A DNA stretch of 27,361 bases from a virus. Positions 2,691 through 17,598 of the stretch are shown in pieces. The notes beneath the pieces were generated by a model. That model did not search any database, was not told the origin of the DNA, and worked only from the letters and a program-made list of their open reading frames with translations. A program made the translations under genes and the position numbers. The stretch is taken from positions 1-27,361 of the IMG/VR virus record IMGVR_UViG_3300042549_001025; one strand, written 5' to 3'. The first letter of the stretch is position 1. Each line of letters begins with the position of its first letter.

Positions 2691-3118
2691 TGTTTCCATT
2701 GACCGCATTACTTGAAGTGGGTGGCAAGCTGATTGACAAGCTAGTACCTGATCCAGAGGCCAAAGCCAAAGCACAGATGGAGTTGGCAAAGATGGCTCAA
2801 GACGGTGAGCTTGCAAAGATGGCTAACGACACCAAGTTGTTTGAGACTGAGCAAAACAACCTCACAGACCGCTTAAAAGCAGATATGTCATCTGACTCTT
2901 GGCTGTCCAAAAACATTCGCCCTATGACCCTTCTATTGATTCTGGGTGGCTATTTCACATTTGCCATGATGTCTGCCTTTGATTACGACACAAACAGGTC
3001 GTATGTTGAGTTGCTTGGACAGTGGGGAATGCTGGTGATGTCGTTCTACTTTGGTGGGCGAACATTGGAAAAGATCATGGACATGAAATCTGACAAGAAA
3101 GACAAGGACGCAAAGTGA
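2690..3118 (+). CDS. Holin, GTA-type (3TM superfamily)
   Basis: This 142-residue protein resembles the holin family associated with gene transfer agents (GTA_holin_3TM type). The front GGKLIDKLVPDPEAKAKAQ and following Lys/Glu/Ala helix (residues 10-50) match the family's typical amphipathic N-terminal half. The segment WLSKNIRPMT precedes hydrophobic helices at about 79-97 and 106-124, and the tail is very basic. Holins of this kind assemble in the inner membrane and let the endolysin reach the cell wall. The gene overlaps the upstream membrane-protein gene by one base (TGATG) and the endolysin gene by GTGA, the usual arrangement of a lysis cassette. Confidence 0.8.
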   Translation: MFPLTALLEVGGKLIDKLVPDPEAKAKAQMELAKMAQDGELAKMANDTKLFETEQNNLTDRLKADMSSDSWLSKNIRPMTLLLILGGYFTFAMMSAFDYDTNRSYVELLGQWGMLVMSFYFGGRTLEKIMDMKSDKKDKDAK

Positions 3119-3711
3119 TTACTGCTGAACAACTCAAAGAATTGCACATTGATGACGATTGGTTGGAGCCTTTGAACGAGGCTTGCCAACGCTATGAGAT
3201 CAACACCCCGCTGCGCATGGCTGCGTTCATTGGCCAGTGCGCCCATGAGTCGGGCAACTTTAAGACCCTGCAAGAGAACCTGAACTACAGCGCCGAGGGC
3301 TTGTGCCGGGTCTGGCCGAGCCGATTCCCCACGCTGGAGGCTGCGCAGCCCTACCACCGCAATCCCGACAAGATCGCCAACAAGGTCTATGGCGGGCGGA
3401 TGGGCAACGGCACCGAGGAGACCGGCGAGGGTAGCTTGTATAAAGGCCGTGGTCTCATCCAGCTCACCGGCAAGGACAACTACACCTTGTGCGGCGATGC
3501 GCTGGGCCAAGACTTCATCCACTCCCCCGACCTGATCCTATCCCCCAAGTACGCGGCCCTGAGCGCGGCGTGGTATTGGAACAAGCGCGGCCTCAATAAA
3601 GAGGCTGACGCCAAGGACTACACCGGGATGACGAAAAAAATAAATGGTGGTGTAATCGGTCTTGACGACAGAATTAAGCACATCAACCACGCGCTGGCTG
3701 TGCTCACCTAA
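3115..3711 (+). CDS. Endolysin, glycoside hydrolase family 19 (chitinase-like)
   Basis: This 198-residue protein starts at GTG 3115 (AAGGA seven bases upstream), overlapping the holin stop as GTGA. GH19 features are clear: AAFIGQCAHESGNF with the likely catalytic acid E45, a second glutamate E54 nine residues later (QENLNYS), YKGRGLIQLTGKDNY at about 109-123, and AAWYWNKRGLN near 151-161. The E-to-E spacing of nine agrees with GH19 endolysins. It cuts peptidoglycan glycan strands. There is no signal peptide or anchoring helix, so it should depend on the upstream holin for release. It consists of the catalytic domain alone, with no cell-wall-binding module. Confidence 0.9.
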   Translation: MITAEQLKELHIDDDWLEPLNEACQRYEINTPLRMAAFIGQCAHESGNFKTLQENLNYSAEGLCRVWPSRFPTLEAAQPYHRNPDKIANKVYGGRMGNGTEETGEGSLYKGRGLIQLTGKDNYTLCGDALGQDFIHSPDLILSPKYAALSAAWYWNKRGLNKEADAKDYTGMTKKINGGVIGLDDRIKHINHALAVLT

Positions 3712-5675: not shown

Positions 5676-6320
5676 ATGACAAAACTTAACCTAAGCCGCC
5701 CGCCTCGGCTGCCGTCTGCGCCGACTCAGTACGACAAGCAGTTCCATGACCAGCACAGCGATGTGCTGCGCCTGTACTTCAGCCAGCTCGACAACGTGGC
5801 GTCAGCGCTTATCGGCACCAACGGCGGTCAGTTTGTGCAGTCCCCCCACGCCATGCTGATGAGCGATCAGGACCAAACCAACGCAGGCATCACGTCCGAG
5901 AATATCGTCACCTACAACGTGCCAGTCATCGAGCAGGGGATTGAGGTCCGTAACGGCTCTGAGATATGGTTTGAGCAGACGGGGCAGTACTTTGTCTCGT
6001 TCAGCCTGCAGTTCACCAATCGGGGCAACGCTGCGCAAGAAATTGAGGTCTGGGCAAAGTCGGACGGGTCAAACTACCCCTTGTCCAATACCCGGTTTGA
6101 CATCGCGGCGCGAAAGAGTGTGTCGGTGTGGTCGCATGCAGTTGCGGCTGTGACGGGTATTTTTACCGTGACCAATCCAGACACGAACTACCTGCGAATT
6201 GCTTGGTGGTCGGGCGGTGCCAGTGTGTTTCTTGAGCACTATCCGGTGGGCACTGCCCCTGTGCGCCCCGCAGTCCCGTCGGTAATCCTGACGGCCCACC
6301 TCATCTCCCGGCTGCCCTAG
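5676..6320 (+). CDS. Virion protein with C-terminal jelly-roll-like domain
   Basis: The protein has 214 residues. The first 50 residues are helical and polar (…YDKQFHDQHSDVLRLYFSQL…), a likely attachment segment. From about residue 70 to 200 alternating strands appear (IEQGIEVRNGSEIWFEQTGQ, YFVSFSLQFTNRG, IEVWAKSDG, SVSVWSHAV, YLRIAWW), the layout of C1q/TNF-like jelly-roll heads in phage structural proteins. It lies 11 bases after the large tail protein gene. Only a weak ribosome-binding site (GTAGAAA) is seen before ATG 5676, so it may be translated by coupling. The 54 bases that follow (6321-6374) contain no gene, terminator or clear promoter. Confidence 0.6.
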   Translation: MTKLNLSRPPRLPSAPTQYDKQFHDQHSDVLRLYFSQLDNVASALIGTNGGQFVQSPHAMLMSDQDQTNAGITSENIVTYNVPVIEQGIEVRNGSEIWFEQTGQYFVSFSLQFTNRGNAAQEIEVWAKSDGSNYPLSNTRFDIAARKSVSVWSHAVAAVTGIFTVTNPDTNYLRIAWWSGGASVFLEHYPVGTAPVRPAVPSVILTAHLISRLP

Positions 6321-6374
6321 ACCGGATGACCCTTAAATGATAGACTCGATCAACCCTTTTACCGCGAGGCCCCA

Positions 6375-8216
6375 ATGAGCCTACAACTTGCCGCACAACA
6401 TCTGGCCTCCCGTGGCAGGGGCCCAGACACCACCCTAGTTCACATGGCCCCACAAGAAGTGGCTGGCCTGCAGGCGCTTGCCAAGGCCCATGGCGGCTCC
6501 CTGACCGTCAACCCCGATACGGGTTTGGCCGAGGCTGGCTTCCTGTCGAGCATCCTGCCCATGGTGGCTGGCGCATTCCTTGGCCCCGCAGGTCTTGGTT
6601 TGACAGCGATGCAGGCTGGCTTGGCCGCTGGCGCTTTGGGTACTGTGGCTACCGGCAGTCTGAAGAAGGGCTTGATGGCTGGCTTTGGCGCGTACGGCGG
6701 TGCTGGCTTGGCAAGTGGCTTGATGGGCGCTGGCACAGGAGCACTCTCTTCGGCAGCTGGTGCTGCTGGCGCTAACTCGGTGGTTCCTGCTGTTGCCACT
6801 GAAGCGGTTGTCCCCGCAGCAACCGAAGGGCTTGTTGGCGCGGCAGAAACGCTTGGTTCTACCGTGGCCAACCCTACAGGGATTCCCGGATTTCAAGGCA
6901 CTGGCCTCGGTTTAACACCGGCATCTTCGGCAATCAACGCCGGTCAAATGGTGACGCAAGCCACGCCTACCATTACGCAAGCCCCCGCGTTGACTCAAAA
7001 CGCCGCAGACATCGGAAACATCTACGCGCAAGAACAAGCTGCGCAGAACGCCGTTGCAAGCAAACTGGCCAATGCAACTCCTTGGGAAACAGCAAAAGCT
7101 GGATTTGGCGAAATCGGAAAAGACCCCAAGCGGTTCATGACCAAGGAAAACCTGCAGTACGGTCTGATGGGCCTCTCCCCAGTGATAGCGGACATGATGA
7201 CGCCAAAGAGAGGCGACGTGCAACAACGCCCTGTTGAAGCAACCCCACGTTATGCTTACGATCCCGGCCGCATTGCAGACCCCTACTCGCAGCGCACTGG
7301 AGCCTATACAGGCGAAGTCTTGCACTTTGACCCACGCTTTACGCGTGTCGCTGCCGGTGGTGGCCTCATGGACATCGGTCCAATCGAAGCCATGTCTGAC
7401 CGCAACCAAGCCGAGACCATGATGGCCAACGGCGGCATGCGCTTTGCCGAAGGCGGCAAGGCTGTAAGCAAAGTAGAGGACGACCCGTACTACACCATGT
7501 CCGGCCAGTCCGGCGATGCGTACAAATACCTGATGGGTCAAGGCGCTAAACCTGCGACACCCATGCCCGCCCCTGTGGCAGCTCCTGTTCAACAAGCCCA
7601 AGTCGCGCAGAATCTGGCCCCTCAAAATGCGGTATTCGCTAAGGTTCTTGGCGGGATGAACCCGCTAGGTCAGTCAATGTTCCGGGGCATGTTTGCGGGC
7701 AACCCCGCAATCCAGCAGGCACTTTCTGGTGGGCAAGGCGGCTCTTGGCAAGACGACACCAGCGGACTGACTAAGACCTACACCTTTGACCCTAACACCG
7801 GCACGTTCACTGCAGCCCAAGCGCCCAAAGTATGGGTGCCAACGACAACCGCAACGCCGATTGCGGGAGCGTGGGATTCAGGCGATTACGCCCAAGGCGG
7901 CATCGCATCTTTGGCTCAAGGTGGTCAAAGCCATCTGGGCGATTACTCGGACGGCGGTCGTCTTTTGAAAGGTCCCGGCGATGGCGTATCTGACTCCATT
8001 CCTGCTTCGATTGGCGACAAGCGCCCGGCGCGTCTTGCTGACGGTGAGTTCGTTGTGCCTGCTCGTATCGTTTCTGAGTTAGGCAACGGCTCGACCGAAG
8101 CTGGCGCACGTAAGCTGTACGCCATGATGGACCGGGTCCAGAAGGCCCGGAAGAAGTCGATTGGCAAAGACCGTGTGGCTGTCAACAGCCGCGCAGAAAA
8201 ACTGCTCCCAGCATGA
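6375..8216 (+). CDS. Ala/Gly-rich virion protein, probable internal/ejection protein
   Basis: This 613-residue protein starts at ATG 6375 with GAGG five bases upstream. Residues 1-50 are an ordered head (…LVHMAPQEVAGLQALAKAHG…). Residues about 55-140 are hydrophobic, Ala/Gly-rich segments able to enter a membrane. The centre is Gln/Ala/Thr-rich. The last 80 residues contain GPGDGVSDSIPA (from residue 533) and ADGEFVVPARIVSEL, a C-terminal module I recall from many aquatic phage virion proteins. Two A-polar-G-G doublets occur (residues 351-361 and 506-517), echoed in the next virion genes. Membrane-active stretches and context with other ejection-type proteins suggest it leaves the particle with DNA, but this is inferred. 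Confidence 0.6.
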   Translation: MSLQLAAQHLASRGRGPDTTLVHMAPQEVAGLQALAKAHGGSLTVNPDTGLAEAGFLSSILPMVAGAFLGPAGLGLTAMQAGLAAGALGTVATGSLKKGLMAGFGAYGGAGLASGLMGAGTGALSSAAGAAGANSVVPAVATEAVVPAATEGLVGAAETLGSTVANPTGIPGFQGTGLGLTPASSAINAGQMVTQATPTITQAPALTQNAADIGNIYAQEQAAQNAVASKLANATPWETAKAGFGEIGKDPKRFMTKENLQYGLMGLSPVIADMMTPKRGDVQQRPVEATPRYAYDPGRIADPYSQRTGAYTGEVLHFDPRFTRVAAGGGLMDIGPIEAMSDRNQAETMMANGGMRFAEGGKAVSKVEDDPYYTMSGQSGDAYKYLMGQGAKPATPMPAPVAAPVQQAQVAQNLAPQNAVFAKVLGGMNPLGQSMFRGMFAGNPAIQQALSGGQGGSWQDDTSGLTKTYTFDPNTGTFTAAQAPKVWVPTTTATPIAGAWDSGDYAQGGIASLAQGGQSHLGDYSDGGRLLKGPGDGVSDSIPASIGDKRPARLADGEFVVPARIVSELGNGSTEAGARKLYAMMDRVQKARKKSIGKDRVAVNSRAEKLLPA

Positions 8217-8710
8217 ACACTCCAGAATTTGATCGCCTGAATAAACACGTACCGCTCTTTGGGCAGTTCCTTAAAGGGGATGCCGAGGCGGTAAATTTTG
8301 TTGTCCGCGTCTTCCGCGCCCTGCACGTTTGGGACGATCTGATCGACAAAGACAAGCCCGTGGCGGATGACGAGATTCACGCCGTGTTCTGGGATTTGCT
8401 GATTGGCCTGCCTGCCGACAAGTTCTATCAGGCGCACCTTGGTCTGCTTAGCAGCACACTGGTAAACGCTGTAGTGAACTGGCACATTGCCAATAAGCTG
8501 GAGCGCGAAGGCAACGAGAAAGATCGTTCCATCGCTTTTATTTTGCGCGGGGCATACATTGATGTGCTGTCCGCATCCGCCCTGATCGTGGGCGGTTTGG
8601 ATTGGGCGCGAGAGATTGGCCCGGACATCCGCCGCTGGGCACACGAAGAAACCTTCGACCAATACTTGAACAACTTTGCCAAAGAATGCGAGGCACGCAA
8701 TGATAATTAA
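8213..8710 (+). CDS. All-helical phage protein with a WDDLIDKD motif
   Basis: This 165-residue, almost entirely helical protein starts at ATG 8213 by ATGA overlap with the previous gene. A DDxxD-type sequence (VWDDLIDKD, about residues 42-50) is followed by an acidic-hydrophobic helix (DDEIHAVFWDLLIGLP) and later by GAYIDVLSASALIVGGLDWA, which looks like a buried helix pair. I recall similar proteins in the virion gene blocks of aquatic phages, without known function. The DDxxD followed by long helices is reminiscent of isoprenoid-synthase-fold proteins, but the second Asp-rich motif is not evident. Its location between two virion genes argues for a structural or assembly role. Function is unassigned. 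Confidence 0.75.
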   Translation: MNTPEFDRLNKHVPLFGQFLKGDAEAVNFVVRVFRALHVWDDLIDKDKPVADDEIHAVFWDLLIGLPADKFYQAHLGLLSSTLVNAVVNWHIANKLEREGNEKDRSIAFILRGAYIDVLSASALIVGGLDWAREIGPDIRRWAHEETFDQYLNNFAKECEARNDN

Positions 8711-9722
8711 GTCCAAAGCCGAAGGCTATTCCAGAGACGGCATCCGCCTGTATCCATGCGACGACGGCGGCGGCGGTTCGGCCCCTGCACAAACCACACA
8801 AACCCAAGACCTGCCAGACTGGGCCAAGCCATACGCTCAAGAGGTTCTAGGTAAAGGTGCTGCGCTGTCTGAGGCCCCGTACCAAGCGTACACAGGGGAG
8901 CGGATTGCGCAGTTCACCCCCTTGCAGCAACAAGCATTCCAAGGCGCTGGCGCTATGGCCCCCTCTGCGGCAACAGGTGAGGCCGTTACTCGGGCGCTGG
9001 GTACATCCTACGACCCCTACGCCACTGGGCAGTTCGGTGCGCAGGCCAGTCAGTACATGGACCCCTACATGCAGAACGTGGTGGGCATCCAGCAGCGTGA
9101 AGCACAACGCACGGCCGACATTGCAGGCACACAGCGCGGCGCTCAAGCCGTTCAGTCGGGTGCTTTTGGTGGTAGCCGTCAGGCCATCATGGATGCAGAG
9201 GCTGCACGCAATCTGGCAATGCAAAAAGGCGACATCCAAGCCCGTGGCTTGCAGGATGCTTACGGCCGTGCCCAAACTCAGTTCAACACCGAGCAGCAGC
9301 TGCGCGAGCAGTCCAAGCAGTACGGCGCAGGACTTGGCCTTCAGGGTCTCCAGACCGCCCTCACGGGCGCTGGTCAGCAGTTTACACAAGGCATGGATGT
9401 CAACAGGTTGCAAGCAGGCTACGGCACGCAGCAGCAACAGCAGGTGCAGAACATCCTTGGTCAGCAGTACCAAGACTTCTTGGACCAGAAAAAGTTCCCG
9501 TATCAGCAGCTGGAGTTCCAGTCCAACCTGTTGCGCGGCACGCCATCAGGCACGACACAATCTTTGTATTCCGCTGCACCAAGCACAGCGTCGCAGTTGG
9601 CTGGTCTGGGCACGGCTGCGTATGGTTTGAGCAAAATGGCAGAAGGCGGGACTACTCGCGGCTACGCCAAAGGCGGGTTGATGGATTTGGCGATCGCCGA
9701 CATGATGGGAGAGCAGGCATGA
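8700..9722 (+). CDS. Gln-rich coiled-coil virion protein
   Basis: The start is set at ATG 8700 (340 residues, MIIKSKAEGYSRDG), because GAGG lies six bases upstream; an in-frame ATG at 8676 has no such site and would increase the overlap with the previous gene. Residues 35-60 read WAKPYAQEVLGKGAAL, followed by long Gln/Ala helices. Hallmarks are YMDPYMQNVVGIQQREAQR (about 119-137) and QSGAFGGSRQAI (about 152-163), which I recall as conserved in podovirus virion proteins. The C-terminus carries an A-polar-G-G doublet (residues 314-326) and ends in DLAIADMMGEQA. An internal virion or ejection role is likely from the family and neighbours. Confidence 0.7.
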   Translation: MIIKSKAEGYSRDGIRLYPCDDGGGGSAPAQTTQTQDLPDWAKPYAQEVLGKGAALSEAPYQAYTGERIAQFTPLQQQAFQGAGAMAPSAATGEAVTRALGTSYDPYATGQFGAQASQYMDPYMQNVVGIQQREAQRTADIAGTQRGAQAVQSGAFGGSRQAIMDAEAARNLAMQKGDIQARGLQDAYGRAQTQFNTEQQLREQSKQYGAGLGLQGLQTALTGAGQQFTQGMDVNRLQAGYGTQQQQQVQNILGQQYQDFLDQKKFPYQQLEFQSNLLRGTPSGTTQSLYSAAPSTASQLAGLGTAAYGLSKMAEGGTTRGYAKGGLMDLAIADMMGEQA

Positions 9723-11308
9723 TTAACATCGAGCAGATCACGTCCCGTCTGGCCAAGTTGCCAGACCAGCAGCTGCAGCAGTACGCGCAGATGCACAAGA
9801 GCGACCCGTACATCATGGCGCTGGCCATGTCGGAGTCCAACCGCCGCAAGGACCTGCGGGCTTCCGCGCAGGCGGGCCCGGCCCAAGAGCAGCCCAAAGT
9901 TGTTGACCAAGCCTTGGCCGAGATGGGTGTCCAGCAGTCACCTGACGAATCCGGTATCGCTGCGCTACCTGCGGGCGAGATGAACTTTGCCGACGGCGGC
10001 ATTGTGGCGTTCGCTGACGGTGGGGGTACCTACGAAACCCCTTACGACCGCAGAAACCGTGTAAATCGGGAAGCTGCCGCAGCGGCACAGGCGGAGCGCG
10101 AAGCGGAAGCTGCGCAAATTGGCGTAACCCCTTACGGCGACCAGATGAGTCGCATGTACGACGCGTTGGTTCCGAACCCGTTGAATATAGTTAAGACGCT
10201 GGTGAGCGCTCCCGGGTACGGCTTAAATAAAGATGCTGTGCCTACTGCAGCTGCGCCTATGCCTGCGCCGTCCGCTGCGGGTGCCCCGAGCCCACAGACC
10301 CGACCCACTCCTCAGCAGATCGAAGCTGCGGTACGCCCCAAAGCGAAACCCGCACCCGAAGCTGGTCTCGGCGGCACCCGTGAAGCTGCCGCACTGCGCG
10401 GAACTGGTACTTCCGGTGCTGGTGGTCCGTCCGTAGACAGCGCCAAGGAAACAGCCGGTCAGTTCTTGGATACCAAGGGCCTGCGCGCCGATCTGGATAA
10501 GTTCTACAAGGACGAAGAGGCTGCCGTCGCGGCCTCACGCAAGCGCCGTGATGAGGGTAAACCTGAGGGGAAGGCGTACTCCAAATACGAGGAAATGCTG
10601 GCAAAGGAAGAAGCCGGCGCTGGTAAAGAGAAGGACGAAGCCCAAGCTACTGCGATCTTCCGCTTGGGTGTGGGCATGATGGCGGGCACATCGCCAAACG
10701 CGTTCAAGAACATCGGAGACGCTGCCGGGACTGCATTGACCGAATACTCTGGCGCCATAAAGGACATGAAGAAAGCCACCAAGGAGCGCCAGAAAGCCTT
10801 GGGCGAAATCGAGCAGGCCCGCCGTGCGGAGTCCCGCGACGACTGGAAAACCGCGCGCGAGTTTGAGGAGAAGGCCGACGCCCGCATGGCAAAAGCTCGG
10901 GAGTTCGGCATCAAGGGCATCATGGACATCACCGGCAAGGACGCCGATATTGCCTCCGGCATCTACAAAACGCAGGTGGAGCAGCAGGGTCGGATGGACA
11001 TAGCCCAGTTGCAGGCACGTACCACGCTGGCTGCGGCCAAAGAGCGCGGCAGTGCGGAACTGACGCAAAAAGACCGGGCCGCAATCGCGGACAAGGCGAT
11101 GGATAACGTCAACGCGACCCTCAAAGCCAACGTCCCACTGCAGATGAAAGCCGCCAAAGACCCTGCGTATTTGCAGCAGTTGGTCCAAGCGGAAACTTCC
11201 CGGTTGATGGCGGCGGCAGAGGGTCGTACAATGGCGCCAGCCCCCGGCGCAGCAAGCCCCGGCGGAACCAGTTTGAAGTACAACCCCGCAACGGGGAAAA
11301 TTGAATGA
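9719..11308 (+). CDS. Coiled-coil virion protein, probable internal protein
   Basis: This 529-residue protein starts at ATG 9719 within an ATGA overlap. The front (residues 1-45, ITSRLAKLPDQQLQQYAQMH then YIMALAMSESNRRKDLRA) is a conserved-looking helical module. An A-polar-G-G doublet sits at 91-102. Residues about 170-240 are a Pro/Ala linker, and 250-410 are strongly charged helices likely to form coiled coils (KDMKKATKERQKALGEIEQA). The end is Gly/Pro-rich. Together with the preceding and following proteins it makes up a block of long helical virion proteins, as in the inner core/ejection apparatus of short-tailed phages. The virion role is inferred from context. Confidence 0.6.
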   Translation: MINIEQITSRLAKLPDQQLQQYAQMHKSDPYIMALAMSESNRRKDLRASAQAGPAQEQPKVVDQALAEMGVQQSPDESGIAALPAGEMNFADGGIVAFADGGGTYETPYDRRNRVNREAAAAAQAEREAEAAQIGVTPYGDQMSRMYDALVPNPLNIVKTLVSAPGYGLNKDAVPTAAAPMPAPSAAGAPSPQTRPTPQQIEAAVRPKAKPAPEAGLGGTREAAALRGTGTSGAGGPSVDSAKETAGQFLDTKGLRADLDKFYKDEEAAVAASRKRRDEGKPEGKAYSKYEEMLAKEEAGAGKEKDEAQATAIFRLGVGMMAGTSPNAFKNIGDAAGTALTEYSGAIKDMKKATKERQKALGEIEQARRAESRDDWKTAREFEEKADARMAKAREFGIKGIMDITGKDADIASGIYKTQVEQQGRMDIAQLQARTTLAAAKERGSAELTQKDRAAIADKAMDNVNATLKANVPLQMKAAKDPAYLQQLVQAETSRLMAAAEGRTMAPAPGAASPGGTSLKYNPATGKIE

Positions 11309-11316
11309 GGTAACAC

Positions 11317-14300
11317 ATGGCGTACACAGTAGCTTTGCCTGACGGTCGGACAGTTGAGTTTCCCGACGATCTACCCAAGGACAAAGCTGCTGCGATAATC
11401 CGCCGGCAGTTCCCTGAGCTCGGCGCACCAGAAACCACCGCCCTCGGCCAAGTCAAAGAAGGCTTCAAGGGGCTCGTGCCCGGCGCGATCGGTTTGCTGG
11501 AAGGCGCAGCTACAGGCGCGTCTGCGTTGCTCCCCGAGGACATGGAGAAATCCGCCCGGGAGAAGATCAAGTCGGTGGCCACTGCTGCCAAATCACCATT
11601 TGCTGCAGCTCCCGGATACGAAGACACTGTCGGGCGCAAGCTGGGCGAAGCCGTCGGCTCTACGGCTCCATTCCTGTTGGCGGGCCCCTTGGGGTTGGCG
11701 GGCCGTGTTGGTGCCGTAGGATTGGGTGTTGGCGCTGGCGCTGGCGAAGCCCGCACGCGAGCAGAAGAGTCTGGAGCCACTGGCGACCAGCGCGGCACGG
11801 CCACGGCACTGGGCATGATTCCCGGTGCACTCGAAGCCTTTGCTCCACTCCGTATCTTGTCCCGCATCCCCACGGCGTCTAAAGCTGCAGGGGTCGAGGC
11901 CGTCAAGCGTGCCTTGTTTGCTGGCGGCGAGGAGGCGGCCCAAGAAGCTGCATCAGGGTTCGCGCAAAACCTCATTGCCCGGGGCATCTACAAACCCGAG
12001 CAGGCACTGATCGAAGGTCTGGGCGAGCAGGCTGCTTACGGCGGCGCTACTGGTGCCATCGTGCAGGGTTTGATGGACTTGGCCCTCGGCCGTCGCGCTC
12101 GTGGCGCGCAAACAACACCCGGAGAAACACCTCCCGCAGCGCAGCCCGGTACGCAGGGCACCATGTTTACCGAAGAGGAAATGGGGAAGCCCGTGCGCGC
12201 TCGCGCAGAGCCTGCTGCCACGATGCCAGAGTTAATGGCCGAACGGGATGCACTGCGTGCCGAAGCGCCTACGCCAGAGACACAGGCTCGAATTGACGCC
12301 ATTACGCAGAAGCTGACAACGGCTGAAGGCCAGCAAGACCTCGGCCTTGATTACCAGCGCGAGTACGTTGATATGGTGCAGGAGCGTGAGCGCCTCACGC
12401 AGCAGCCGCAGACCCCAGAGGTCAAGGCCCGTCTTGCTGAGCTGGGCGAGCAGATGGCGCTGTACACACAGAGCGACATTGAGAGTATCCGTGCGGAGAA
12501 GGAAGGCCAAGTAGCCGCTGCGCAAGCCGATGCCAAAGCCCGCAAGAAATTCCCCGCTTTGGCCGGAGCCCCTGACCTGCTGACCCAATCGGATGAAGTC
12601 AAAGCTCGCACTCAAAGCGACCTGTTCGGTGGTGAACCCGCCCCACTCCCCGCTGCCAAAACGCCCGAGGCGCCCACTGGCCCTACCCCAGTTCCGCCTT
12701 ACACCCGCAAGGGCGAATATCAGTACAAGCTGCCGCTGCGCGGCGGTGAAGTGGTCGAGCCGTTTACTCTGCAGAACGTGATGGACACCGGCATTGCACC
12801 GTCCACAACCAAGGGGTGGTTTGAGAAGAACGTGGTCGGCAAAACCCAAAGCGAGGTGCAAGCCCTCGTCGACAAAGACCCGACGCTGCTGGGCGGAAAC
12901 GGAAAACGCGCCAAGATTTTGCGTGAACTGCTGGCTCCGCAGTCAGCCCCATTTAAGGAGGCACCAAGTGTCAAACCGACCCCTACCGAGACGCCTGCAG
13001 CTGAGCAGCGAGATGAGCCCCGAGCTGGTGAGCCAAGCGTGGGAGTTCCTAGTGAGCCTGCAGCCCCCGTCGTTTCTGAACCCGGAGCCGGAGTTCCCGG
13101 AGCCGCCGCAGAACCTGTCACACCTGACGGACGCGGACTGGTACCTGCTGGACGGCCTGCTGTGCAGGGAGATGAAACTCAAGGAGCAGAGCCCACTGCA
13201 GTAACGGCTGAGGCGGAACCAACCCCTGCTCCGGTAGTGGAACCAACCCCTCCTGCCGAAGCTGCACCCCAATCGTACGAGCAGTCTCCTGTAATCGCTG
13301 CGTTGGCCAAAGCCAAGACCAAGGCGCAACTGGAGTCGGCACTGGACGAGATTGCGCGAATTCGCCGAAATCCCGCGCACCCAGAGCACGAGGCCGTCAA
13401 TGCGTTCCTTGCGGATGCACTTGCAGCTCCCGGCTTCGAGCCAATGTTTGCTGCTGCGCTGGACCGGACCCGCCCACGCCAAGTACCTACGGAGCCAAAA
13501 TCGACTACGGATGGCTTGGAGAAGAAGCCCCGCGCAACCAAGCCAATCCGCGCTGTCCCGGCTGCATTCTTTGAGCCTGTTGGGGTCGACCGTAGGACTG
13601 GCAAAGTAGTCCGTGGCAAGCAGATGCTGATGCAGCCGATCGACGACAAACGCGCCGCTGAGTACCTGAAGGCCAAAGAGCAAGCAGACGAAGGCGATAC
13701 CACCGACCTGATGGCACTGTTTGAGGAGATCGAGAACGAAGGCGAAACCCCCGATACCCAAGGCGCTTTGTTTGATGACGACGGCAACGTGACCAAGGAA
13801 GGCGCAGCGACGGCACCGCTAAAAGCCACAAAGGCAAAACCCGCCGCTGCTAAACCAGCCTCTGCACCTGCGCAGCCTACGTCAGTTGCGCCTACAAAGG
13901 AAATCACCCAGACTGCCGACGGATGGGGTGGGGAAGTTTTGTTCTTTGACGGCAACGTGGGAATCATCAAGCGCCCAAATCCCCGCTCCGGCGAGCTGCA
14001 ATACATCCCGATTCAGGCGGACGGCACATACTCGCAGAACTTGTTGAACGGTGTTCAGACAGTAGACAACCTCCAAGCGGCGGGCACGAGCAAAGTGTTT
14101 TCCCCTGCCGAGATGGCGACGCTCACTGCACAAACTGCTGACTTCAAAGCCAAAGAGACCGCAGCGGAAGCTAAGTTCCCGGACGGCCCGTTTACAGGGG
14201 CTGCCTCCAATGTGGTGGCTGGTAATTCGGTTGACCCTCGCTATACAAACTACCTCACAGCCTTGATGAAGTCCATGGGGTTGGGCGACATCCGCGTGTA

Positions 14301-17300
14301 CCTGTACCACTCCGCTGACGTTGCTGGGAACGCGGACAAACTGCATATCCACGGCAGCTACTACCCAATCATGGCGCGAGGTACGGCAGATAAGTCCCAA
14401 AAAGGGGGCACCCGATCCATCGGTCCTGAGGGCAAAGACTTTATGTTGTTCATCAACGACAACATGTCGGAGGCCGAAACGCTGGAGATTCTGTCCCACG
14501 AACTCGGGCACATGATTCAGGAGATCGCGTTCAACAACGCCCCTGCCAACGTGCAAGCTGCTATCAAGGACGCACATGACGACTGGCTCAACAGCCTAAA
14601 AGGCAAGACCGTCGGAGATTTGGTTGAGAGTTTGCGCAACCGCTCAGCTGCCGAGCTGACGATCCGCGAGTCTGGGCCCGGCGCAATGCAGATGCCTATC
14701 AGCCAGCTTACTGCCAAAAACCGCAACTACTGGTTGGGCTTCAATGAGTGGTTCGCTGATAACGTATCCCGCTGGGCGACCACTGCGGACAAGCCCCTGA
14801 CCATTACCGAAAAGTTTTTCTCCAAGGTCGGGCAGATGATGCGGGACTTGGTGGCTGTTGTGACGGGCCGCAAATACCCACCACAGAAAGTGGTAGCTGA
14901 CTTCCTCGACAAAATGGGTCCCGGCAGTGGCGACGCGTGGATGGCCAAAGCGCAGGTTCCGGTGGGTAAGGTTCAGCCCTTGCAGAACGCAGTGACGTAC
15001 ACAACTGAGCAGCTTATCGACTCTATGGGCCCAATGGAGGCGCAAGAAAAGCCCATGCTGCGCAAAGTCATCGACGGTTACAAAGACCAGACTGAGGTGG
15101 GTTACGCGGTCAAGTTTCGTACGCAGGTTGCGGACTCTGCTGCCACGATCGAGCACCGCCTGCGCGAGCAGTTTGACGGCGCCGTGAAGGACAAGCTGGG
15201 CAAGTTCAACCCCATGGGTCTATACCGTCAGGCGCAGGACTACTCCAAGATGCTGCTGGAGTACCTGCAGGTTGGCGCAATGTCCAAGGAAGCTGCCACA
15301 GGGCTGTGGAAAGTCAAAGCCGACGCCAATGTGCGCCCTCCCGTGGAGGTCTACGCGATGATCGACAAGTGGGCTGCCAAGAACGGGTACTCCCGCGAGC
15401 GCGGCACCCAGATCGCAAGTCGTATTCTGGAAGGTGTGCGTCTGGACGCTATGCGGACATCTAACAAGAACGACGGCACCAGCTTCCTGCTGCACCTGAA
15501 AGATAACGAGATCGACCAGCTCGTGCGCGAGTACAAGGCAGACCCCGAGCTGCAAGCCATGAGCAAAGCCATGGACGAAGCGCGTCTGGCTATGGTGGAC
15601 AACATGATTGCGGTCGGCCGGTTGTCTGCTGAACAAGGCCAGTTGTGGAAGGACGCCGCAGGGTACGTGCCGTTCGACCGGATTGACGACTTTGCCACCA
15701 GCTTCTCCAAGATCAAGAAGATCAGCAACAAGGGCTTGGCCCAAGTGGGCAAGCTGCCAGAGCTCGTCGGTTCGATCAACCGCCCCGTTGGCAACGTGTT
15801 TGACAACTACCTGAACACCCTCGGGTGGATGGTGGGCCAGACCCTCAAGACGGACGGCACGGTGCAAACCCTGCGCAGTCTGGAGGATGCAGGGCACGCC
15901 AAATTTATCGGCCGCAGCCCTCAGGGCAAAGACAACGTCGTGGGCATGTACGTCAAGGGCGAGATGATGTACTGGGAAGTGCCATCGAAGTACGACGTGC
16001 TGGCGTTTAAGGACCTGAACCCGCCCAAGGCCAAGTGGCTGCAGGTGCTGGGCCAAGCGTCCAACGTGCTGCGCAAGGCAGTGACAGCACTGCCACCATT
16101 CGCGCTCAAGCAGGTAACGGACGACGTGCAGCGTGCCATCATGACCTCCGGTGTGAAGAACCCCGGCGCGCTGCTGCGCATGACGCTGTCCAACTTCGGC
16201 GGGCTGGCACTGGCCGAGTTGCGCGGCATTCAGCATCCTACAGTCAAGCAGTTTGGTGCATTGGGCCTGACCGGCGAATACGACTTCCAGCAAGGCAAGC
16301 CTGCAGCGTCTGTGCTCAAGGACTTGGGGTACAAGCCTCGGGGTAAGTTTGAGACCCTGCTGCACCGACTGGACGGCATCACCCGCGCGTCTGACTTGGC
16401 TGTGCGTAAGGCCATCTTCGACCAGACCATGAAGGAGTCGCAAGGCGACGAGCTGCTGGCACAGACCCGGGCCCGGGAATTCATCAACTTCCGCCGCCGT
16501 GGCGCAAGCGACTTCGTGGGTGCGATGGTCACAACCATCCCGTTCTTCAACGCCTACATCCAAGGTATGGACGTGCTGTACCGCGCAGCATCCGGCAAGG
16601 ACTCCAGCTCCTCAGTGGGCCGAGCACAAGCTCGCCGCATGTTCTGGAGTCGGGCTGCCATCGCCATGACGCTCAGCTCGCTGTACGCGCTGGGTGCGGG
16701 CGACGACGAGGACTACCAAGAAATGGACCTGCGCACTCGGGACAGCAACTGGATTTTGCCGGGCGGGTTCAAGCTGCCGGTGCCAAGCGAACTGGGCGCG
16801 TTGTTCAAGGTGGTCCCCGAGCGCGTGGTGGAATACATGCGCCGCCAAGGTACGCCCGAGGAGCAGACTGCATGGGAAGCAACTCGTACTGCCCTGACCT
16901 ACATCATGGAGCAATACGTCGGCCGCACGGTGCCTGTGCCGCAGGGTGTCAAACCTCTGCTGGAGGCATGGACCAACTACTCGTTCTTCACCGGGCGCGA
17001 GCTGGAAGGCATCTACCAGAAGCAGCAGGACCCAAGCCTGCGCCGCGCATCCAACACCTCTGAGCTGGCCATCGCCATTTCTGAGTTCAGCCGGGACGTG
17101 ATCGGGGTGGATAAGGTATCGCCCATCATGATCGACAACGCACTGAACGGCTACTTCGGCTCGTCCGCTGGCCTGCTGGTTGCCATGACGGACTCCTTGC
17201 TGAACCCAACGCGAGTCGACCGCCCACTGCACAAATACGCGCTGGTGTCCAACTACATGTACGACCCAGTGGGCACGCGCCGCATGACGGAGTTCTACGA

Positions 17301-17598
17301 ATCCCGCGAGAAGGTTGGCCGCGCCAACACCACGCTGAACGAGCTGATGAAGACCGATCTGGACAAAGCCGCCACGTATGCTGAGGAGCATGCAGACGAG
17401 CTGATGCTGGAGTCGGCAGTCAACTCAACGCTGGAACAGCTGGAGCGCACCCGGGCCTACAAGAAGTACCTGAACAGCCCGCTCGGCGCAGAAGCCATGT
17501 CGAAGGAAGAGCGCGAAGCGTCCATCAAAGAAGTCCGGCAGATGGAGATCGACCTCACTGGCTGGCTGCGCGAGGCGAAGACCGCGGTACGTCAGTAA
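11317..17598 (+). CDS. Giant polyvalent virion protein with zincin HELGH motif
   Basis: This 2093-residue protein starts at ATG 11317 with GAGG seven bases upstream. Residues 1-35 are a short module (YTVALPDGRTVEFPDDLPKD), and 45-250 contain Gly/Ala-rich membrane-like helices. Residues 255-840 are mostly Pro/Ala/Glu linkers with small helical islands. A zincin-type H1061-E-L-G-H1065 motif is followed by E1144 in GFNEWFAD, a candidate third zinc ligand, pointing to a metalloprotease-like domain. The helical C-terminal half (about 1230-2090, with GYVPFDRIDDF and ALPPFALKQVTDDVQRA) resembles the 'large polyvalent protein' domains of phages. Such proteins are packaged and injected with the genome. 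Protease activity is not proven. A second gene is nested in another frame at codons 551-629. Confidence 0.75.
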   Translation: MAYTVALPDGRTVEFPDDLPKDKAAAIIRRQFPELGAPETTALGQVKEGFKGLVPGAIGLLEGAATGASALLPEDMEKSAREKIKSVATAAKSPFAAAPGYEDTVGRKLGEAVGSTAPFLLAGPLGLAGRVGAVGLGVGAGAGEARTRAEESGATGDQRGTATALGMIPGALEAFAPLRILSRIPTASKAAGVEAVKRALFAGGEEAAQEAASGFAQNLIARGIYKPEQALIEGLGEQAAYGGATGAIVQGLMDLALGRRARGAQTTPGETPPAAQPGTQGTMFTEEEMGKPVRARAEPAATMPELMAERDALRAEAPTPETQARIDAITQKLTTAEGQQDLGLDYQREYVDMVQERERLTQQPQTPEVKARLAELGEQMALYTQSDIESIRAEKEGQVAAAQADAKARKKFPALAGAPDLLTQSDEVKARTQSDLFGGEPAPLPAAKTPEAPTGPTPVPPYTRKGEYQYKLPLRGGEVVEPFTLQNVMDTGIAPSTTKGWFEKNVVGKTQSEVQALVDKDPTLLGGNGKRAKILRELLAPQSAPFKEAPSVKPTPTETPAAEQRDEPRAGEPSVGVPSEPAAPVVSEPGAGVPGAAAEPVTPDGRGLVPAGRPAVQGDETQGAEPTAVTAEAEPTPAPVVEPTPPAEAAPQSYEQSPVIAALAKAKTKAQLESALDEIARIRRNPAHPEHEAVNAFLADALAAPGFEPMFAAALDRTRPRQVPTEPKSTTDGLEKKPRATKPIRAVPAAFFEPVGVDRRTGKVVRGKQMLMQPIDDKRAAEYLKAKEQADEGDTTDLMALFEEIENEGETPDTQGALFDDDGNVTKEGAATAPLKATKAKPAAAKPASAPAQPTSVAPTKEITQTADGWGGEVLFFDGNVGIIKRPNPRSGELQYIPIQADGTYSQNLLNGVQTVDNLQAAGTSKVFSPAEMATLTAQTADFKAKETAAEAKFPDGPFTGAASNVVAGNSVDPRYTNYLTALMKSMGLGDIRVYLYHSADVAGNADKLHIHGSYYPIMARGTADKSQKGGTRSIGPEGKDFMLFINDNMSEAETLEILSHELGHMIQEIAFNNAPANVQAAIKDAHDDWLNSLKGKTVGDLVESLRNRSAAELTIRESGPGAMQMPISQLTAKNRNYWLGFNEWFADNVSRWATTADKPLTITEKFFSKVGQMMRDLVAVVTGRKYPPQKVVADFLDKMGPGSGDAWMAKAQVPVGKVQPLQNAVTYTTEQLIDSMGPMEAQEKPMLRKVIDGYKDQTEVGYAVKFRTQVADSAATIEHRLREQFDGAVKDKLGKFNPMGLYRQAQDYSKMLLEYLQVGAMSKEAATGLWKVKADANVRPPVEVYAMIDKWAAKNGYSRERGTQIASRILEGVRLDAMRTSNKNDGTSFLLHLKDNEIDQLVREYKADPELQAMSKAMDEARLAMVDNMIAVGRLSAEQGQLWKDAAGYVPFDRIDDFATSFSKIKKISNKGLAQVGKLPELVGSINRPVGNVFDNYLNTLGWMVGQTLKTDGTVQTLRSLEDAGHAKFIGRSPQGKDNVVGMYVKGEMMYWEVPSKYDVLAFKDLNPPKAKWLQVLGQASNVLRKAVTALPPFALKQVTDDVQRAIMTSGVKNPGALLRMTLSNFGGLALAELRGIQHPTVKQFGALGLTGEYDFQQGKPAASVLKDLGYKPRGKFETLLHRLDGITRASDLAVRKAIFDQTMKESQGDELLAQTRAREFINFRRRGASDFVGAMVTTIPFFNAYIQGMDVLYRAASGKDSSSSVGRAQARRMFWSRAAIAMTLSSLYALGAGDDEDYQEMDLRTRDSNWILPGGFKLPVPSELGALFKVVPERVVEYMRRQGTPEEQTAWEATRTALTYIMEQYVGRTVPVPQGVKPLLEAWTNYSFFTGRELEGIYQKQQDPSLRRASNTSELAIAISEFSRDVIGVDKVSPIMIDNALNGYFGSSAGLLVAMTDSLLNPTRVDRPLHKYALVSNYMYDPVGTRRMTEFYESREKVGRANTTLNELMKTDLDKAATYAEEHADELMLESAVNSTLEQLERTRAYKKYLNSPLGAEAMSKEEREASIKEVRQMEIDLTGWLREAKTAVRQ
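12955..12961 (+). promoter_or_regulatory. Perfect Shine-Dalgarno site inside the giant virion gene
   Basis: The sequence AAGGAGG is fully complementary to the anti-SD of 16S rRNA. It stands six bases before a GTG (12968) in the +1 frame relative to the host gene. It has no use for the host frame, where the bases simply encode part of F-K-E-A. Its strength and exact spacing decide the start of the nested gene. Confidence 0.65.
12968..13204 (+). CDS. Nested overlapping gene, 78-residue unknown protein
   Basis: This frame lies wholly within the 2093-residue gene, shifted +1. GTG 12968 follows AAGGAGG at six bases, and the stop is TAA at 13202-13204. The product starts SNRPLPRR, has MSPELVSQAWEFLVSLQP (residues 16-33), a Pro/Glu linker (PSFLNPEPEFPEPP), and an ordered-looking helical end LTDADWYLLDGLL followed by REMKLKEQSPLQ. 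Of 78 codons about 68 end in G or C (hand count), while only about 31 of 79 host-frame codons do over the same stretch. The host protein there is a low-complexity Pro/Ala/Glu linker. Short phage proteins ending in a similar DW..L..LL..-SPL pattern seem familiar, but I cannot name the family. An internal ATG at 13013 is a weaker alternative start. Confidence 0.65.
   Translation: MSNRPLPRRLQLSSEMSPELVSQAWEFLVSLQPPSFLNPEPEFPEPPQNLSHLTDADWYLLDGLLCREMKLKEQSPLQ

Follow-up and report, generated by a model that had tools for sequence, protein, structure and literature searches.

An Ala-x-Gly-Gly motif shared by three ejection-type proteins of an environmental phage adjoins a tape-measure-type hook module

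The window analyzed here is a 27,361-base IMG/VR virus record (IMGVR_UViG_3300042549_001025), in which three otherwise unlike proteins, called p1, p2 and p3, carry the same short motif. The unit of this motif is a hydrophobic residue followed by Ala-x-Gly-Gly (AxGG), often found twice, 8 residues apart, with Ile or Val often next. The units are conserved in position among related phages and the doublets are restricted to p1, p2 and p3. In p1 they precede a C-terminal module homologous to the hook of tape measure proteins (TMPs), and in environmental contigs they are linked to hook and ejection genes. The explanation tentatively favored is that the doublets are docking peptides, forming a short linear motif conserved within a DNA-ejection cassette of phages. 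A first-pass annotation of the window had proposed that the doublets are a binding, packaging or processing tag of particle proteins; it did not include the link to TMPs and their hook module. The genes and motif positions are the following.

6375–8216, + strand: p1, 613 amino acids (open reading frame (ORF) call); one hydrophobic N-terminal segment by hydropathy, AxGG units, then a C-terminal TMP-type hook module
7425–7457, + strand: doublet 1 in p1, ANGGMRFAEGG, read from the translation
7890–7925, + strand: doublet 2 in p1, AQGGIASLAQGG, units at −109 and −101 from the C-terminus
7944–7958, + strand: third p1 unit, YSDGG, at −90 from the p1 C-terminus
7962–8213, + strand: p1 hook core, LKGPGDGVSDSIPA...ADGEFVVPARIVSELGNG..., near-invariant in 28 sequences
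8213–8710, + strand: ORF of 165 amino acids without unit, phrog_21390 (function unknown)
8703–9722, + strand: p2, 339 amino acids, DNA ejection protein family (phrog_4287, E 7.7e-15, residues 25–314)
9639–9677, + strand: doublet in p2, AEGGTTRGYAKGG, near the C-terminus
9719–11308, + strand: p3, 529 amino acids; helical conserved N-terminal module (residues 1–51), disordered linker, C-terminal long helices
9989–10024, + strand: doublet in p3, ADGGIVAFADGG, in a predicted disordered linker

The four doublets reported in the first-pass annotation all translate at these positions, and an additional overlapping match, AQGGQSHLGDYSDGG, starts at p1 residue 514. The three proteins had been described as consecutive, which is incorrect since the 165-residue ORF separates p1 from p2. 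They had also been described as otherwise unlike, and indeed no meaningful mutual similarity was found by BLASTP outside the motif (best E 0.14), which rules out homology of p1, p2 and p3 elsewhere in their sequences. The motif had been written as A-polar-G-G. The doublet arrangement stands but the polar residue does not, as the conserved unit, defined as [FYMLWIV]-[AS]-x-G-G, takes any residue at x. The units are situated in or beside flexible segments. A search with a 40-residue motif query returned only noise (E 1–8).

Residue shuffling of the called genes of the window (5000 shuffles) produced a mean of 0.13 doublets and a maximum of 3, compared to the 5 observed, which rules out a chance origin. 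When GG blocks were kept intact, P was 0.0008 for p1, 0.038 for p2 and 0.025 for p3. The shuffled gene set, called greedily, omitted the Gly-rich protein listed below. That protein, examined separately, served as a built-in negative control: its 53 GG pairs yielded a single weak match resembling the unit. The family of the second protein listed, directly downstream of p3, was used to evaluate the density of units.

703–1623: Gly-rich tail-fibre-like protein, 306 amino acids, 53 GG pairs
11317–17598, + strand: polyvalent-type protein of 2093 amino acids without unit, directly after p3 (LPD38, E 4.6e-27)

A search with p3 retrieved 39 related IMG/VR loci. The window's own protein is included in each of the following counts, and distinct sequences amount to 32 of 36 p1, 36 of 40 p3 and 33 of 37 p2. 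Genes were called by script as greedy longest ORFs, some of which are spurious. At least one unit is present in p1 in 36/36 cases, in p3 in 40/40 and in p2 in 27/37. In p1, the distances from the C-terminus are conserved, with a unit at −90 in 34/36, at −101 in 30/36 and at −109 in 18/36, and the form MANGGxx[FY]AxGG is found in 15/36. In p3, a unit is found in the doublet region in all 40 proteins, 31 of which have two units exactly 8 residues apart. In p2, the unit lies 15–32 residues from the C-terminus in 25/37, and GG is found within the last 45 residues in 37/37. Thus, the positional conservation on which the first-pass annotation made its proposal depend is observed. Five loci (L015, L017, L018, L024 and L025) combine a p2 ending with KKGG and a p3 with FSDGG or FGSGG, a possible covariation of p2 and p3 units; they may form one clade and were not counted as evidence.

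The density of units per 1000 residues is 8.8 in p1, 1.7 in p2 and 3.6 in p3. Other genes have 0.8, and the family of the 2093-residue protein, in which 2/35 relatives have any unit, has 0.03. In four fetched relatives with 82, 67, 66 and 69 called genes, doublets occur solely in p1, p2 or p3; the equal frequency in non-virion Gly-rich proteins that had been envisaged as a counter-indication was not seen. Generic Gly-richness is ruled out by the unit densities, the 306-residue protein and the placement of the doublets in the four relatives. From the gene neighborhood and PHROG matches, p1, p2 and p3 are presumed to be virion proteins. The claim of a common tag therefore holds in that a conserved element is common to unrelated particle-type proteins and specific to them; its processing part is not supported, as presented below.

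The p3 doublet belongs to a region (residues 70–105) predicted to be disordered, with a predicted local distance difference test score (pLDDT) of about 38–52, between the helical N-terminal module and the long helices. In the alignment of p3 proteins, the columns of the doublet are near-invariant and the surrounding linker is variable. With fixed positions in an otherwise variable, predicted disordered segment, the p3 doublet fits a conserved short linear motif. An ordinary flexible linker without specific partner would also be consistent with the predicted disorder and with AxGG being often found at domain borders; Gly-Gly beside Ala would then simply be the favored composition of hinges in ejection proteins and TMPs. 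This explanation retains some weight but is unlikely, given that the exact residues and the 8-residue spacing are kept in 31 of the 40 p3 amid a varying linker, that the fibre-like protein has a single weak unit-like match among so many GG pairs, and that the family of the 2093-residue protein has 3 units in 87,645 residues. This persistence of exact sequence and spacing in a segment predicted to be disordered is what favors docking over a plain linker. Most p3 relatives also have another conserved string, G-I-x-x-L-P (window 9926–9988), directly before the doublet. In the scan described further below, a loose form of this pattern precedes the doublet in 18/114 proteins, some by chance.

The C-terminal module of p1 reads GPG-x-G-x-SDSIPA...DGEFV... 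and is adjoined upstream by AxGG units. It combines the GPGxGxSDSIP...[DN]GE[FY]V core known from TMPs with an AxGG-type unit just upstream. The last 119 residues of p1 matched by tblastn 88 INPHARED records, many of them annotated as tape measure protein. The related C-terminal module of an environmental protein matched 130 records. Among the 60 of these listed, 42 are named tape measure, and a spread listing was similar. With a profile restricted to the core, without AxGG, the window p1 was found with an E value of 8.4e-11, the JBD30 TMP with 9.2e-13 and lambda gpH weakly with 7.6e-5 (Z = 1e4). The TMPs of 9NA, JBD25 and AlishaPH were also matched; the P22, T7, HK97 and Mu proteins of the target set were not listed. 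Profile–profile comparison of the p1 module with the TMP module gave a probability of 99.2%. The sequence from locus L027 was excluded from the p1 hook profile.

In JBD30 gp46, the sequence GFASGGHIKGPGTGTSDSIP...EFMTRAAVV starts at residue ~1018, with a FASGG unit at 1019, and the module extends over about 1018–1052. It overlaps a segment of the TMP, residues 1022–1066, predicted to form a hook in a cryo-electron microscopy study of JBD30. According to the same source, the predicted hook would anchor the TMP in the tail tip after release of the C-terminal part (PMC11445458). In lambda gpH, FATGG (733) and YATGG (778) are found on either side of GEFVFTKEATSRIGVG. Pattern scans of viral sequences yielded at least 120 stretches per pattern, in a listing order that is unknown. 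For a second TMP core, GExGxEAIxP[LF], 97 of the 119 ORFs listed have a unit at most 60 residues upstream, compared to 2.4% of random windows from the same proteins, and the distance peaks at 22–23 residues. With a looser AxGG definition, the motif lies within 45 residues in 111/119 of these ORFs; among the 119 listed ORFs with GPGTGTxDxIP, 68 have it at a distance of at most 20 residues.

When p1 was compared with known tape measure domains (TMP_2, TMP_3, Tape_meas_lam_C and NCBIfam equivalents), no Pfam match was obtained at E ≤ 1 and no NCBIfam match at E ≤ 0.1. A sequence search of the PDB with the p1 module returned a chance hit only. Because no long-tail genes were recognized among the 10 window proteins scanned, p1 was not filed as a TMP.

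An unbiased scan of viral contigs was carried out with a DNA pattern for A-x-G-G-I-x-x-[hydrophobic]-A-x-G-G, the reversed pattern serving as control. The listed stretches were in frame in a called gene in 113/120 cases for the doublet pattern versus 75/120 for the reversed pattern. At least 114 doublet proteins were obtained. The doublet recurs in many environmental phage proteins, in agreement with the mention in the first-pass annotation of similar strings in other aquatic phages. TMP families lead among their PHROG matches, a comparison that took in 86 of the 114 proteins (200–760 amino acids). Using the core-only profiles, the hook was found within 48 of the 114 listed doublet proteins themselves. 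Of the other 66, 25 have a hook gene at most 5 kb away; where the flanks are sufficiently long, the figure is 15 of 22. Hook genes are present in 72 of the 120 listed doublet contigs versus 4 of the 120 control contigs. Longer hook profiles gave 49, 25, 73 and 4 in place of 48, 25, 72 and 4.

The neighboring hook gene is on the same strand as the doublet gene in 25/25 cases and upstream in 24/25, the latter figure being obtained with the longer profiles. A p2-like ejection gene stands between the two in 21 of these 24 cases (L099, with the hook downstream, was excluded), so the doublets are found next to ejection-type genes. Only 11 of these 24 doublet proteins are detectably p3-like. Overall, 71 p2-like genes were found on the listed doublet contigs versus 2 on control contigs. 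Since the linkage is seen without detectable p3 homology, the doublet marks a recurring cassette even where this homology is no longer visible. ORFs of 134–157 residues recur between the hook gene and the doublet gene in many independent cassettes. The 165-residue ORF of the window, which overlaps both the end of p1 and p2, may likewise be a fixed part of the cassette, possibly a chaperone.

Processing by a maturation protease cutting at or after GG would be consistent with the recurrence of GG at domain borders, and the T5 and lambda TMPs are cleaved during tail assembly (PMC10038345). Such a signal is however very unlikely. The S78, ClpP and S49 protease families (PF04586, PF00574 and PF01343), to which the search was confined, were each found in 0/15 relatives, the records of which are possibly fragments. 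This result lowered the cleavage reading. The T5 protein is cut after Arg1127 (PMC10038345), and the predicted cut of the JBD30 protein, at 1066, is downstream of its FASGG unit (PMC11445458). Docking is preferred over cleavage in view of the absence of the three protease families from the 15 relatives and of the cut positions, predicted to be downstream of the unit in JBD30 and located after an arginine, not a GG, in T5. It is more improbable still that the doublets are membrane-active segments inserting into the host membrane during ejection. In p3, the most hydrophobic 19-residue stretch (mean 1.06) does include the doublet's first unit, but no such stretch of p2 or p3 reaches 1.4 on the Kyte–Doolittle scale, and charged or polar residues are found within the units.

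In Pelagibacter phage HTVC115P, gp72 (L289:6293–7300), encoded between the portal and capsid genes, contains the hook module GPGTGTSDSIPAMLSDGEFVFTA, with MAKGG close to the C-terminal end. Judging from this match, the hook module occurs in a head-region protein too. A packaging or core-assembly tag, by which AxGG would bind the portal or the scaffold during head assembly and load p1, p2 and p3 into the procapsid without any role in ejection, would accommodate this protein. It would be equally consistent with the restriction of the motif to p1, p2 and p3. It is nevertheless improbable, because siphophage TMPs, which go into tails and not into procapsids, have the unit next to their hook modules.

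Regarding known systems, p1 resembles the siphophage TMP hook (JBD30 gp46, 1022–1066) by its GPGxGxSDSIPx...xxEFxxxA module with an AxGG unit just before. Unlike siphophage TMPs, p1 has 613 residues, belongs to a podovirus-like gene set and has no tape, and the units are also found alone, in p2 and p3. The C-terminus of lambda gpH is like p1 in its paired units around GEFVFTKEATSRIGVG and its weak core match, but is devoid of GPGxGxSDSIP. The C-terminal 42–43 residues of T5 pb2* may be regarded as a functional counterpart of the hook, alike by position and role only. They are structurally resolved in a crevice of the opened hub (PMC10038345). The p2 protein matches the DNA ejection proteins of PHROG 4287, the C-terminal AxGG units being a feature of p2 in the present lineage. 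P22 gp7/gp20/gp16 and T7 gp14/gp15/gp16 have a similar presumed role in DNA ejection, with neither doublets nor a match to the hook module. The gene order hook/second/third of the window is also that of the cultured phages DSL-LC04, Synechococcus phage MinM2 and Caulobacter phage GB2A, where a unit precedes the hook in 3/3 p1 and is present in 2/3 p3.

Several observations weigh against a docking role. The p2 proteins of DSL-LC04, MinM2 and GB2A are without unit (0/3), as are 10/37 p2 relatives of the window. The ejection proteins of P22 and T7, including P22 gp7 and T7 gp14, which were tested directly, are without doublets. Among TMPs, that of TP901-1 has neither unit nor core, and those of HK97 and Mu have no unit; the unit is therefore widespread but not universal. 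Only 46 of the 119 listed ORFs with GPGTGTxDxIP have a strict unit at most 40 residues upstream, compared to 5.5% for random windows. The role of the JBD30 hook is itself a prediction by the authors of that study (PMC11445458). Finally, the AlphaFold2 model of the C-terminal 263 residues of p1 has no confident fold (mean pLDDT 59.3).

The docking that is tentatively proposed would operate in a cassette where p1, a hook protein resembling TMPs, is followed by a small ORF, p2 (DNA ejection), p3 (the doublet protein) and a giant polyvalent protein. It is presumed that p1, p2 and p3 are packaged in the virion and ejected. Extended AxGG peptides would dock, perhaps via strand addition, on one shared partner, which may be the lumen of the tail, the opening of the portal or the hook itself. 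Through the docked units, the ejection proteins would stay grouped at the exit, with one end anchored there while the remainder passes into the cell envelope.

Around the cassette, residues 161–427 of the 2093-residue protein weakly resemble a virion RNA polymerase (E 1.3e-4), and the protein also has a HELGH zincin-like motif. An endolysin-like gene (3115–3711; Glyco_hydro_19, phrog_181) is found just 5′ of the structural genes. A blastn search of phage DNA with window 5676–11308 gave no match, and neither did a tblastn search of INPHARED with the N-terminal module of p3. A p3 search in GTDB genomes produced 25 candidates, 0 of which were confirmed as relatives.

As a kind of element, a conserved motif and hook in TMPs and ejection proteins rests on known parts. 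No description of the motif, or of three podophage ejection-type proteins having it in common, was found in the limited PMC collection searched, and none is mentioned in the accessible parts of two papers on ejection proteins (PMC8954989 and PMC11440229). The presence of the same tag beside the anchor segment of TMPs suggests that short- and long-tailed phages have part of their DNA-injection machinery in common. A broader proposal, possible but doubtful, is that AxGG is a common docking code for genome ejection. In long-tailed phages, the code would stand beside the hook by which the TMP stays anchored in the tail tip. In a large group of environmental podophages, the hook would be carried by the tape-less p1 and the code repeated on p2 and p3, with one exit site holding the whole set. 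If this is true, a shared part recognizable in the sequence connects the ejection machinery of long-tailed phages to that of short-tailed ones. Ejection proteins diverge fast and are hard to recognize; the motif together with the hook module marks their cassettes in many unannotated environmental phages. The motif also provides named, mutable positions, so that an anchoring step shared by podophage ejectosomes and siphophage TMPs becomes testable, with lambda gpH and JBD30 gp46 as laboratory systems.

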